A stretch of 64,000 bases of DNA from Melioribacter roseus (GTDB lineage: Bacteria; Bacteroidota; Ignavibacteria; Ignavibacteriales; Melioribacteraceae). A program made the position numbers and the translations under genes. The first letter of the stretch is position 1, and every line of letters starts with the position of its first letter. Location of the stretch: positions 1 through 64,000 of the forward strand of contig DYHH01000011.1 of the NCBI GenBank assembly GCA_020724265.1. The letters are read 5' to 3'. Below the pieces are notes generated by a model. The model saw only the letters and a list, made by a program, of their open reading frames with translations, ran no database searches and was not told the DNA's origin. This document shows positions 44,503-48,960 of the stretch, piece after piece.

Positions 44503-44557
44503 ACTCACACTTCAAATCTTTATAATCTAAGATTTTTGTGGTAAATTATTTACTAAG

Positions 44558-45340
44558 ATGAAGAAATTTAGAATATACATTGACGAAGTAGGGAATAATG
44601 ATTTAGATAGTTCGAATAACCCAAATCATCGGTACTTAAGTTTAACGGGAATTATTTTTGAGTTAGATTATGTTAAAAAAATAGTTACACCACAACTCAG
44701 TAGTCTAAAAGAAAAGTATTTTGAGCCGCACCCTGATGAACCTATAATCTTTCATAGGAAGGAACTCGTAAATAAAAAATATCCTTTTCAATCACTCCGC
44801 AATCCAGATATTGAACACAAATTTAACAACGACCTATTGACTCTCCTTAAAAACTTTGAGTTTACCGTTATTTCAGTGCTTATCGATAAGAAGGAACATA
44901 AAATTAAATATTCTACATGGAAATATGATCCTTATCATTATTGTATGGAAATTATTTTGGAAAGATTCTTTTTCTTTCTTGAAAATAATGATGCGCTGGG
45001 TGACGTGATGATTGAATCTAGAGGGGGAAAAGAAGATATGAGATTAAAAAAATCTTACAGCCGGATTTTTGAAAAAGGAACTCATTTTGTTGAAGCTGAA
45101 AGATTAAATAAACGACTTACTAGTAAAGAACTGAAAGTGAAACCCAAAATGTTAAATATTGCTGGACTTCAATTGGCTGATTTAGTTGCACATCCCTCAC
45201 GACGGATGATGTTTAGAGTATATAACATCGAAGAGGGCAAAAAGTATCCTTTTGGTGAAAAAATTATCTCGGTAATTAAAACGAAGTATTATAAAGGGAA
45301 AGATGGAATTGAAGGGTACGGGATTAAATTGTTACCATAA
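44558..45340 (+). CDS. DUF3800 domain protein
   Basis: The protein has 260 residues. The DUF3800 pattern is clear: RIYIDEVGNNDL at the start, YLSLTGIIFELDYV, VMIESRGGKEDMRLKKSY in the middle, and LQLADLVAHPSRR near the end. The acidic residues (Asp in YIDE, Glu in ESRG, Asp in LADLV) fit an RNase H-like nuclease fold, but activity is not established. DUF3800 genes often lie in accessory or mobile regions and next to structured RNAs. Here a small minus-strand RNA candidate follows directly. No strong ribosome binding site was seen. Confidence 0.9.
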   Translation: MKKFRIYIDEVGNNDLDSSNNPNHRYLSLTGIIFELDYVKKIVTPQLSSLKEKYFEPHPDEPIIFHRKELVNKKYPFQSLRNPDIEHKFNNDLLTLLKNFEFTVISVLIDKKEHKIKYSTWKYDPYHYCMEIILERFFFFLENNDALGDVMIESRGGKEDMRLKKSYSRIFEKGTHFVEAERLNKRLTSKELKVKPKMLNIAGLQLADLVAHPSRRMMFRVYNIEEGKKYPFGEKIISVIKTKYYKGKDGIEGYGIKLLP

Positions 45341-45403
45341 AAAAACCCCGATTGCTCGGGGCAAAGGCTCATTCGTCCTTCCACCTCCAGACGAACTGGA
45401 TTA
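45340..45403 (-). ncRNA. Small structured RNA candidate beside DUF3800 (DUF3800-associated RNA type)
   Basis: Read on the minus strand, a transcript of about 60 bases would start near 45402. Its 5' hairpin has the stem TTCGTC/GACGAA (45390-45395 with 45372-45377) and a 12-base loop TGGAGGTGGAAG, which displays a Shine-Dalgarno-like GGAGG. A short linker leads to a perfect terminator stem CCCCGA/TCGGGG (45361 to 45346) followed by TTTTTTT. No ORF of useful size is present and no minus-strand gene precedes it. Several RNA motifs named DUF3800-I onward have been described near such genes; membership here is inferred from position. Confidence 0.65.
45346..45361 (-). terminator. Minus-strand rho-independent terminator after the small RNA
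   Basis: CCCCGATTGCTCGGGG is a six-base-pair stem with a four-base loop. On the minus strand it is followed directly by seven T residues. On the plus strand the A run precedes it, so it does not serve the DUF3800 gene well. Confidence 0.85.
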
Positions 45404-45406
45404 CTT

Positions 45407-45437
45407 CAAAAATAACATCTGGTTTATAAAGTGTCAA
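45407..45437 (-). promoter_or_regulatory. Promoter of the minus-strand small RNA
   Basis: On the minus strand, TTGACA (45437-45432) is followed after exactly 17 bases by TATTTTTG (45414-45407). The second box is a perfect match to the Bacteroidota -7 consensus TAnnTTTG, and the first is the full sigma-70 -35 consensus. Initiation is expected near 45402, just before the hairpin. Confidence 0.65.
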
Positions 45438-45608
45438 TCACAAAACAAATATCATTTTGAATTGCATTCGATTTGAAAGCGGTTTTAATTAGTTGAAAGA
45501 AACCCAAGTTTTTAGAAAAGTTGGACTTCTTGTTGCGCAAGATGTTAATCTCAATAATCATTAAATTGCATACCTTAAATAACTCCACTGTTTTATAAGG
45601 ATTCAGAT

Positions 45609-45656
45609 ATGAAACTCAAAATCGACGGCAAATCACTCACGCAAAATATATGGTAA
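45609..45656 (+). pseudogene. Fossil of the hutH 5' end (15 codons)
   Basis: The codons read MKLKIDGKSLTQNIW then TAA. The hutH gene 1.8 kb downstream begins MKLALNGKSLT. The two share the 16-base string ACGGCAAATCACTCAC at the same distance from the ATG (45625-45640 and 47420-47435), then diverge. An AAGGA-type ribosome binding site precedes the fossil ATG. It is probably a remnant left by an insertion or recombination that placed the ATPase gene between the copies. The region 45420-45608 otherwise has no ORF; it holds one weak palindrome near 45508. Confidence 0.7.
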
Positions 45657-45690
45657 CAATATTTTTTTAGATGATTAGGAAGAATCTTTA

Positions 45691-47325
45691 ATGCCACTGC
45701 CTATAAATATAGATGAATTAATAAATGGAAGAACTGTAGAGTGGGAAAGAATTGAGTTCCGTAAAGGTTGGGATCCCGAACGGTCAATCAAAACGATTTG
45801 TGCTTTTGCTAACGATTTTAATAACTGGGGCGGGGGTTATTTAATTCTTGGAGTTTCTGAAAATGATGGAAAACCGGAACTGCCCCCAATCGGATTGAAG
45901 CTTAGTCAAATTGATAGAATTCAAAAGGAACTAAATAATCTTTGCAGAAAAATTACACCTAATTTTTTCCCTATAGTTGAGCCGGTTGATTATCGTACTA
46001 AAAAGATACTTGTTATATGGTGTCCGGGGGGAAGTAATCGCCCCTATAAAGCCCCTGAATCTTTGGGAAATAATACACGGTTCTTCTACTTTATCAGGCG
46101 TTTTTCATCAACTGTTAGACCAACTAATGATGAGGAACATGAACTTCTTTCTATGGCTAATCAAATTCCCTTTGATGACCAGTTAAATCATAACGCCGAG
46201 TTGTCCGATTTCGACCTCCATTCAATTAAAGATTTCTTAAATGAAATCGGGAGCGATCTCGAAAAAGAAATTTTCAACCTCTCGATTGATGAAGTCGCGA
46301 GAAGAATGAATATTGCTGAAGGTGCGAACGAAAATTTGCTTCCAAAAAATGTAGGACTTCTATTCTTTGCTAAAAATCCTCAAATGCATTTTCAATCAGC
46401 AATAATTGAGGTTGTTGAATTTAAGGATGAAACAGGAACAGAGTATTCCGAAAAAATTTTTTCTGGGGGACTTCACCGTCAACTTAAAAATGCTCTCGAT
46501 TATCTTCAAAACAAGTTTAGTGAACAATTCATTAGAAAAAGTGCTGGCATTGCGGAATCCGAAAGAGCAGTAAAATATCCTTATTCAGCCTTAGAAGAAG
46601 CGCTGTGTAATGCAGTTTATCACCGCGGATACGACAACAACTCTACTATTGAAGTTCGAATTTACCCAAACCGGATTGATATTATTAGTTTCCCGGGACC
46701 ACTACCACCACTTGATAAAGAAAAACTTAGGAACAATCAATTTGATATACGCAAGTACAGGAACAGGAGAATCGGCGAATTTTTAAAAGATCTTCACCTT
46801 ACCGAAGGAAGAGCTACCGGTATTCCGACAATTATTAACGCGATGAAGAAAAATGGATCACCCAAGCCTGTATTTGAAACAGATGATAATAGAGCATACT
46901 TTAAAACTACTTTATTTATTCATCCTAATTTTTCTCTAATTCCCGAAAGTGTACAAGTCAGTGTACAAGTTAGTGAGATAGCTAACTTCTTTATTATAAA
47001 TAACTTAGAAGAAGTTGTGGACAGCATAGAAACCTACGGTGAGCAAGTAGGTGTACAAGTTAAAGACCAAGTTAAAAGTGTTATACCAACAAAAAAAATT
47101 AATGCATTGTTGGGTATTTTGAATATTTGTTCTTCCCCGCAAAAAAGGCAAACAATATTAAAATACTTGAACATAACAAATCACCCCAAAAATTATGCGA
47201 ACAATATTATTCCATTAATAGAAAACAATCTGCTTGAATTAACAATTCCGGATAAGCCAAGAAGTCGTTTACAAAAGTATAGAACAACAGAAAATGGGAT
47301 GAAACTTTTAAAAATACTTGGTTAA
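45691..47325 (+). CDS. AlbA_2/Schlafen-type ATP-binding protein with HATPase_c_4 domain
   Basis: The protein has 544 residues. The N-terminal AlbA_2 (Schlafen-like) domain has WERIEFRKGWDPERSIKTIC, AFANDFNNWGGGYLILGVSE and LPPIGLKLSQID. Residues 230-420 have the HATPase_c_4 pattern: YPYSALEEALCNAVYHRGY with the Asn of the GHKL box, RIYPNRIDIISFPGPLPP and RNRRIGEFLKDLHLTEGRATGIPTI. A short run of QV repeats (VQVSVQVSE, VGVQVKDQVKS) and a C-terminal winged-helix-like region follow. The family is common in accessory regions; roles in regulation or defence are proposed but unproven. AGGAAG precedes the start. Confidence 0.88.
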   Translation: MPLPINIDELINGRTVEWERIEFRKGWDPERSIKTICAFANDFNNWGGGYLILGVSENDGKPELPPIGLKLSQIDRIQKELNNLCRKITPNFFPIVEPVDYRTKKILVIWCPGGSNRPYKAPESLGNNTRFFYFIRRFSSTVRPTNDEEHELLSMANQIPFDDQLNHNAELSDFDLHSIKDFLNEIGSDLEKEIFNLSIDEVARRMNIAEGANENLLPKNVGLLFFAKNPQMHFQSAIIEVVEFKDETGTEYSEKIFSGGLHRQLKNALDYLQNKFSEQFIRKSAGIAESERAVKYPYSALEEALCNAVYHRGYDNNSTIEVRIYPNRIDIISFPGPLPPLDKEKLRNNQFDIRKYRNRRIGEFLKDLHLTEGRATGIPTIINAMKKNGSPKPVFETDDNRAYFKTTLFIHPNFSLIPESVQVSVQVSEIANFFIINNLEEVVDSIETYGEQVGVQVKDQVKSVIPTKKINALLGILNICSSPQKRQTILKYLNITNHPKNYANNIIPLIENNLLELTIPDKPRSRLQKYRTTENGMKLLKILG

Positions 47326-47403
47326 AAAAACTAACATATATTGCACATGGTTTTTAAAAATAAATTTTAATATGAATTACGGCAACTACTATGGGGACAG
47401 AAA

Positions 47404-48960
47404 ATGAAACTAGCTTTAAACGGCAAATCACTCACACTCGAAAAAATTGATTTCTTCTTAAAAGAAAATCCAACCGTAGAATTAACAAACGATGCGAAGA
47501 AAAAAGTAATCAAAGCTCGCGCCCTAGTTGAAAAATGGGTAGCTGAAGATAAAGTTGTTTACGGCGTTACAACCGGTTTCGGTGAGTTCTCAAACGTAAA
47601 AATTTCGAAAGATGAGAATGATCAGCTTCAAGAAAATTTAATTGTTAGTCATGCTACCGGCGTTGGAGAGAATCTTCCACCGTATATTATAAAAATTATG
47701 ATGCTGTTAAGAGCAAACGCTCTTGCTGCGGGTCATTCGGGAATTCGTCTCGAAACCTTGCAGCTATTAATCGATATGATGAATAAGAATATCATTCCTG
47801 TTATCCCTTCGCAAGGTTCGGTCGGTTCAAGCGGTGATCTCGCTCCGCTTGCTCATCTTGTATTAGGCATGATTGGAAAAAGCAAAGTTCAAGTCTTCAA
47901 AAAAGTTGATGAAGAAACAGACAAGTTTACAAATACAATCTTATCAAAATCAGCTTTGAAGAAACATGGATTATCTCCGGTTAAACTGCGTGCAAAAGAA
48001 GGTCTCGCATTAATTAACGGAACACAAATGATGACTGCTTTTGCTTCAGTGATTTGTAATCGTGCAAGAAAACTGAACAAGCTTGCCGACGGAAGCGCTG
48101 CATTGTCTCACGAAGCACTGCGCGCAACCGACAAAGCTTATGATGCACGACTTCATAAACTTCGTCCTTTCCCCGGACAAATTACCACTGCAAAAAATAT
48201 GCTTGAATTAATTAAAGGAAGCGAGATAAGAAAATCACATTTAAAAAATGATCCACGCGTGCAGGATTCATATTCGATAAGATGCATTCCACAAATTCAT
48301 GGAGCATCACGTGATGCAATTGATTATGTCTGCTCTAAAGTTGAAATAGAATTAAACTCGGTAAACGATAATCCTTTGATTTTTCCCGAGCAGGGCGATC
48401 ATCGAGAAGGCGGAAATTTTCACGGGCAGCCGATGGCACTGGCAATGGATTTTATGTCAATTGCTTTGGCTGAATTAGCAAGTGTTTCCGAAAGAAGAAT
48501 TGAAAGATTGGTTAACGGTTCACTCAGTCAATTACCGAGATTTTTAACAGAGCACGGCGGGCTTAATTCCGGGTTAATGATTGCACAATATACTGCAGCT
48601 GCCCTAGTTTCGGAAAACAAGACATTATCACATCCCGCAAGTGTTGATTCTATTCCAACCTCGGCTAATCAAGAAGATCATAATTCAATGGGGTCAATTG
48701 CCGCAAGAAAATGTTACGAAATATTAAAAAATGTTGAAACCGTTATCGCCATCGAATATCTAACTGCTGCACAAGGAATTGAATTCTTAAATCCCCTTAA
48801 ACCGGGTAAAGGTACTGGTGCTCTTTATAAAAAAATCAGAACACAGGTTAAACCGTTGAATAAAGATAGATTACTGTATGACGATATTCAAAAAGTAATT
48901 AATCTTGTAAAAAGCGGTGAACTCTTGAAATCGGTTGAAAATGTTATTACACTAAAGTAA
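47404..48960 (+). CDS. hutH: Histidine ammonia-lyase
   Basis: HutH converts histidine to trans-urocanate and ammonia using the self-made MIO group. The protein has 518 residues, the normal length. VYGVTTGFGEFSN, VSHATGVGE with the HAL-type Ser-His, and SANQEDHNSMG with the HAL-type Glu support histidine as substrate over phenylalanine or tyrosine. The MIO triad is Ser142-Ser143-Gly144 (GSVGSSGDLAPLAH) in place of the usual Ala-Ser-Gly. No hutU, hutI or hutG is in the window, so the pathway is scattered or incomplete. Its 5' end has a fossil copy at 45609. Confidence 0.93.
   Translation: MKLALNGKSLTLEKIDFFLKENPTVELTNDAKKKVIKARALVEKWVAEDKVVYGVTTGFGEFSNVKISKDENDQLQENLIVSHATGVGENLPPYIIKIMMLLRANALAAGHSGIRLETLQLLIDMMNKNIIPVIPSQGSVGSSGDLAPLAHLVLGMIGKSKVQVFKKVDEETDKFTNTILSKSALKKHGLSPVKLRAKEGLALINGTQMMTAFASVICNRARKLNKLADGSAALSHEALRATDKAYDARLHKLRPFPGQITTAKNMLELIKGSEIRKSHLKNDPRVQDSYSIRCIPQIHGASRDAIDYVCSKVEIELNSVNDNPLIFPEQGDHREGGNFHGQPMALAMDFMSIALAELASVSERRIERLVNGSLSQLPRFLTEHGGLNSGLMIAQYTAAALVSENKTLSHPASVDSIPTSANQEDHNSMGSIAARKCYEILKNVETVIAIEYLTAAQGIEFLNPLKPGKGTGALYKKIRTQVKPLNKDRLLYDDIQKVINLVKSGELLKSVENVITLK

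Follow-up and report, generated by a model that had tools for sequence, protein, structure and literature searches.

The small-RNA gene and its neighbours

The DNA analysed here, referred to as the window, is a 64,000-nucleotide stretch of the Melioribacter roseus genome (contig DYHH01000011.1, positions 1 to 64,000). It carries a DUF3800 gene and, converging on the stop codon of that gene from the opposite strand, a small-RNA gene. The features of the locus are as follows:

44503–45497, no strand: inserted cassette of DUF3800 and RNA, situated between a MOSC gene's stop codon and the terminator of that gene; missing in two congeners
44558–45340, plus strand: DUF3800 gene encoding 260 aa and converging with the RNA; protein of predicted RNase H2-like fold
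45339–45362, minus strand: intrinsic terminator, GCCCCGA-GCAA-UCGGGGU with a U-tract, which overlaps the stop codon of DUF3800 (45338–45340)
45340–45402, minus strand: structured small RNA, 63 nt, AAUCCAG...GGGGUUUUUU, absent from Rfam
45363–45381, minus strand: hairpin 2, (G)AAGG...CCUU(U); in relatives AAGU/ACUU, AAGCC/GGCUU, AUAGC/GCUAU or AUGGC/GCCAU
45382–45385, minus strand: unpaired linker GGUG, conserved; some relatives have GUUG or AGUG
45386–45400, minus strand: hairpin 1, UCCAG-UUCGU-CUGGA, with covariation at the closing pair (G-C/U-A/A-U/U-G)
45407–45414, minus strand: TATTTTTG, a match to TAnnTTTG, the −7 element of Bacteroidota type, 4 nt 5′ of the first A of the RNA, a distance kept in relatives
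45432–45437, minus strand: promoter of the RNA, −35-like box TTGACA

A sequence-only reading had proposed a self-contained minus-strand small-RNA gene here, with promoter, hairpin and terminator packed together. The promoter and terminator were found as described: TTGACA is followed after a spacer of 17 bases by TATTTTTG, the RNA starts with AATCCAG at about 45402 on the minus strand, and its 3′ end consists of CCCCGA/TCGGGG and then seven T. The hairpin did not survive in the form proposed, with the 12-base loop TGGAGGTGGAAG, since its arms TTCGTC/GACGAA pair fully in only 1 of 29 sequences, that of the window. In the conserved fold, the UGGA of this 'loop' belongs to hairpin 1, as part of its 3′ arm, and the AAG to hairpin 2.

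Taken alone, the promoter and terminator patterns in the window are not above chance: promoter-like sites number 9 (10.1 in shuffles) and terminator-like sites 2 (1.9 in shuffles). The element rises above chance because the RNA, the spacing of its promoter element and the compensatory pairing are conserved; TAnnTTTG ends 3–4 nt upstream of the first A in 20/32 distinct RNAs. This conservation bears out the proposal and indicates that the flagged ~100 bases are a genuine small-RNA gene, present as one copy in the genome of the window.

Conservation and fold of the RNA

A pattern search found the RNA in relatives in other genera and families. A covariance model applied to 164 genomes of the order detected 15 strong copies, which fall in 12 genomes including that of the window. 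When 84,980 species genomes were scanned with a pattern, copies turned up in records of Ignavibacteria, Kapabacteria and Bacteroidia; seven matches to unrelated sequence were dropped by eye. IMG/VR, also scanned, contributed two viral contigs. A looser pattern picked out one more viral contig (L164), but this was a chance Shine-Dalgarno match and was dropped. The total was 26 copies at E<=5.1e-5, including that of the window, and the aligned copies span the Ignavibacteria/Bacteroidota group and the two viral contigs. The RNA is sparse, since model R2 found it in only 3/395 genomes of a phylum-wide sample.

The copies share a common order: an initial AA comes first, then hairpin 1 (UCCAn/nUGGA), the GGUG linker and hairpin 2 (AAGn/nCUU), with the terminator last. 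In alignments that were fitted to the structure, and are thus biased toward it, both-side changes were seen in 22 cells with 26 sequences (6.4 when shuffled) and in 36 cells with 30 sequences (9.2 when shuffled, with 36 reached in 0/500 shuffles). With 30 sequences, 12 of 18 pairs showed compensatory change, and the signal collapsed in slid controls. The covariation across homologous loci that the small-RNA reading called for is clear, and folding of single sequences recovered the hairpins in most of them.

At L138 and L139 (DUF3800 identity about 52%) the sequences of hairpin 2 and of the terminator are altered with their pairing kept. L140–L142 (DUF3800 about 36%) combine the core AAUCCGUYAAGCGGAGUUGGA with new hairpins. 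Total RNA length ranges from 57 to 73 nt, and the hairpin loops also differ by non-multiples of three. A conserved plus-strand peptide, the explanation that would have undone the RNA, is excluded because these length differences break the frame and because the changes preserve pairs rather than codons. The short plus-strand frame at 45303–45476 has no Pfam match and undergoes frame-breaking length changes in relatives; a minus-strand micropeptide from the ATG in hairpin 2 was also rejected, as this ATG is absent in many relatives.

Pairing with DUF3800 and mobility of the cassette

A convergent DUF3800 gene lies 3′ of the RNA at 15 of the 26 loci. The association with DUF3800 that had been noticed at the window holds up, the distance from the RNA start to the DUF3800 stop codon being 58–68 nt in all 16 measured pairs. 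When the search was begun from the protein, the RNA was found at 13/15 loci whose DUF3800 is at least about 35% identical; the two that lack it are L137, where the gene is truncated, and L154, the most divergent. The L154 gene (G228:C7:166150-166908), 35% identical and without the RNA, is followed by another convergent promoter-like plus terminator-like stretch, which is perhaps a further RNA type. Distances between RNAs and between proteins were correlated (Mantel r 0.67, 0/5000 permutations), as would be expected under co-inheritance, and RNA types track DUF3800 types. The RNA is almost certainly a conserved partner of DUF3800.

In two congeners, G001 and G002, MOSC continues directly into the terminator and the sequence beyond, whereas in the window about 995 bases (44503–45497), containing only DUF3800 and the RNA, lie between the MOSC stop codon and the terminator. 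Inspection of the insertion edges by eye found no terminal repeats, and an IS-like element was rejected. Neighbouring genes vary at nearly every locus. Horizontal transfer of DUF3800 is indicated because its identity to the window protein is 75% in G678 and 72% in G545, genomes from other orders or families of the class, against 50% and 52% for the housekeeping GTPase HflX. These comparisons point to a mobile two-gene cassette of ~1 kb formed by DUF3800 and the RNA.

Defence genes account for several of the neighbours, namely DarT and type III and type ISP restriction genes. At L094 (1–5300) the cassette separates the methylase gene of a type III restriction system from its Res gene. Elsewhere in the window, at 45609–47420, a gene with AlbA_2/Schlafen and HATPase domains (45691–47325) is apparently inserted at the start of hutH, with a duplicate of the hutH 5′ end left beside it at 45609; this insertion is present in G001 and absent from G002.

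RNA copies without DUF3800

The adjacent DUF3800 gene is missing at 11 of the 26 copies. Remnants of the DUF3800 C-terminus are readable beside both copies at L110, at L088 and beside a decayed copy in L049 (matched by 0, 1, 0 and 5 of 2000 shuffles, respectively), and an RNA that persists beside a decayed DUF3800 could reflect recent protein loss. The remaining orphan copies have no clear DUF3800 remnant. The genome that contains L110 (G085) has no DUF3800, and neither do the two viral contigs (13 and 64 kb). At L110 (1039–5406) the RNA copies, 2.1 kb apart, flank DUF5131 and wHTH-domain genes between DarT and HsdS, a defence-island arrangement without DUF3800. On the viral contig L111 (1586–1656 and 1750–1875) the RNA is directly downstream of a YrlA-like RNA and near a gene with a TROVE domain (Ro60-like).

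The DUF3800 protein

The gene 3′ of the RNA belongs to Pfam PF12686 (DUF3800). The AlphaFold model of the window protein (pLDDT 87) matched 1eke in Foldseek (E 2.4e-4), and VIA-align gave an RNase HII match with Z 9.3 over 175 residues, with RNase H2/H3 structures ranked below it. Residues D9, E10, E153 and D208 are invariant across 29 DUF3800s. The protein is therefore predicted, from its model, to have an RNase H2-like fold and to be a putative RNase H-type nuclease. A sequence search of solved structures found no relative, and PADLOC did not recognise the protein. An RNase H fold predicted for DUF3800 and a link to non-coding RNA have been noted before (PMC10910872, PMC12669027).

Relation to known RNAs and systems

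Rfam gave no match to DUF3800-I to -XI in the window at the gathering score, no DUF3800 family over 45250–45700 even at E<=10, and none over the loci of ten relatives at E<=1. In the broad sense the window RNA is nevertheless a DUF3800-associated small RNA, being conserved, structured and genetically linked to DUF3800. It is most easily compared with DUF3800-VIII (RF03075), also a small structured RNA of about 64 nt, which lies convergent and 3′ of DUF3800 in G087:C19 and G013:C4 and which in this order likewise occurs where DUF3800 is not found. The genome of the window, which has only one DUF3800 gene, carries an orphan DUF3800-VIII RNA at C41:24886-24950 (L160). The window RNA differs from DUF3800-VIII, and from the other Rfam DUF3800 families, in sequence and structure: it has the core AAUCC...GGAGKUGGA and three short hairpins, and accompanies another DUF3800 clade. 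The characteristics of DUF3800-I to -XI used here are in part those given in Rfam and in part general background.

A sister DUF3800 clade, about 27–32% identical, has another convergent RNA, GGAYYGGGG...CCCCGGUCGG plus terminator (L052, L053, L054, L055, L057, L060, L145, L147, L149–L153; L165–L168, L170), which ranges from the class of the window to Proteobacteria. By eye, plasmid records of Bradyrhizobium, Shinella, Sinorhizobium and Acinetobacter showed the same or a similar RNA 3′ of DUF3800, and Pseudomonas phage JBD68 a related form. Position, orientation and a terminator at the DUF3800 stop codon are as in the window, whereas primary sequence and hairpin layout are unrelated. No Rfam family covers the sister-clade RNA above threshold; the BjrC68 (RF02353) covariance model reached a sub-threshold 27.2 against 39 bits at best on these RNAs and did not match the window RNA.

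The window RNA is grouped with the DUF3800-associated RNAs because the family is new in sequence but its kind is already known; by comparison with Rfam we regard it as a new family within that kind.

The pairing of a protein with a small structured RNA is also reminiscent of ToxIN, a type III toxin–antitoxin system. ToxIN RNA consists of tandem repeats upstream of the toxin and is co-transcribed with it, whereas the window RNA is a single unit that lies on the opposite strand and has a promoter of its own, and the RNase H2-like fold predicted for DUF3800 differs from the ToxN fold. A virus carrying the RNA alone would resemble phage PhiTE, which reportedly escapes ToxIN by RNA mimicry (PMC3475682).

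Discussion

We tentatively favour the reading that DUF3800 and the RNA form a protein–RNA toxin–antitoxin-like defence module with an inhibitory RNA, to which we give somewhat less than an even chance. The RNA, transcribed from its own promoter, would fold into three hairpins and bind the DUF3800 protein, a predicted RNase H2-fold nuclease; the bound RNA would hold the protein inactive until a trigger, for example phage infection, disturbs the balance. Direct binding and restraint of the nuclease are what we infer. RNA copies beside decayed DUF3800 genes, in a genome devoid of DUF3800 and on viral contigs are antitoxin-like signs, as are the defence genes among the neighbours.

The same pair could instead consist of a nuclease and a positive cofactor, with the RNA serving as a scaffold or for recognition and DUF3800 unable to cut its target in its absence, and the two readings predict largely identical genomics. 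Other RNase H-fold effectors use RNAs in this way, and the predicted RNase H-type fold and the strict match between RNA type and protein clade would suit it, as would the occurrence of DUF3800 proteins as accessories in CRISPR types V-A2 and VI-F (PMC10910872, PMC12669027). However, the aligned RNAs contain no variable guide-like stretch, and copies without DUF3800 or on viral contigs are not predicted for a cofactor. Restraint is preferred because the RNA is tolerated without the protein and carried by viruses, while an intact protein without the RNA is rare in the clade, an argument from a small sample with only two viral copies; a cofactor role seems to us rather unlikely, if a serious contender. 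Control in cis, in which convergent transcription or a duplex with DUF3800 mRNA read past its stop would lower expression, could draw on the convergent genes, on the overlap of terminator and stop codon and on the lack of a T-run after the hairpin on the plus strand. It is improbable given that the RNA lies outside the coding region and that its conserved sequence and strong compensatory changes are not needed for antisense pairing.

The sequence-only reading had also suggested that the GGAGG of the RNA pairs with ACCTCC-type leaders, and a trans-acting RNA of this kind might equally pair with the 16S 3′ end. The core GGAGGUGG is indeed complementary to the anti-Shine-Dalgarno sequence and nearly invariant through most of the close clade. 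Yet its GGA is held within hairpin 1, the core varies among the RNAs (GGAGUUGG, GGAAGUGG), with GUUGG and AGUGG breaking the complement, and the sister-clade RNA has neither GGAGG nor the complement. Moreover, ACCTCC is common in the window, with 22 occurrences against 11 expected, on both strands, one of them being the RNA's own complement. The suggestion is thus not supported, and we consider trans-action of this type very unlikely. The element might also be a boundary or recombination repeat, non-functional as RNA and kept for the movement of cassettes, as its copies between defence modules (at L110 in the order DarT, RNA, DUF5131 and wHTH, RNA, HsdS) and the varied insertion sites of the cassette might indicate. 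The fixed spacing of the promoter, the RNA-type terminator and the changes that preserve pairs suit a transcript, the insertion lacks terminal repeats and the expected second copy is usually missing, so that such a repeat is very unlikely.

Each DUF3800 clade examined closely carries its own convergent RNA, which suggests a rule. It is conceivable, though doubtful, that several DUF3800 clades make up a broad class of RNase H2-fold protein–RNA defence or toxin–antitoxin modules, each with its own convergent RNA antitoxin at the stop codon, and that the RNAs carried alone by viruses are decoys. The searchable literature gives no function for any DUF3800-associated RNA, though the RNAs have been catalogued. 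With its fixed layout, orphan RNAs, viral copies and RNase H2-like protein, the family in the window is a small, well-defined RNA–protein pair, and it makes the role of DUF3800-associated RNAs directly testable.
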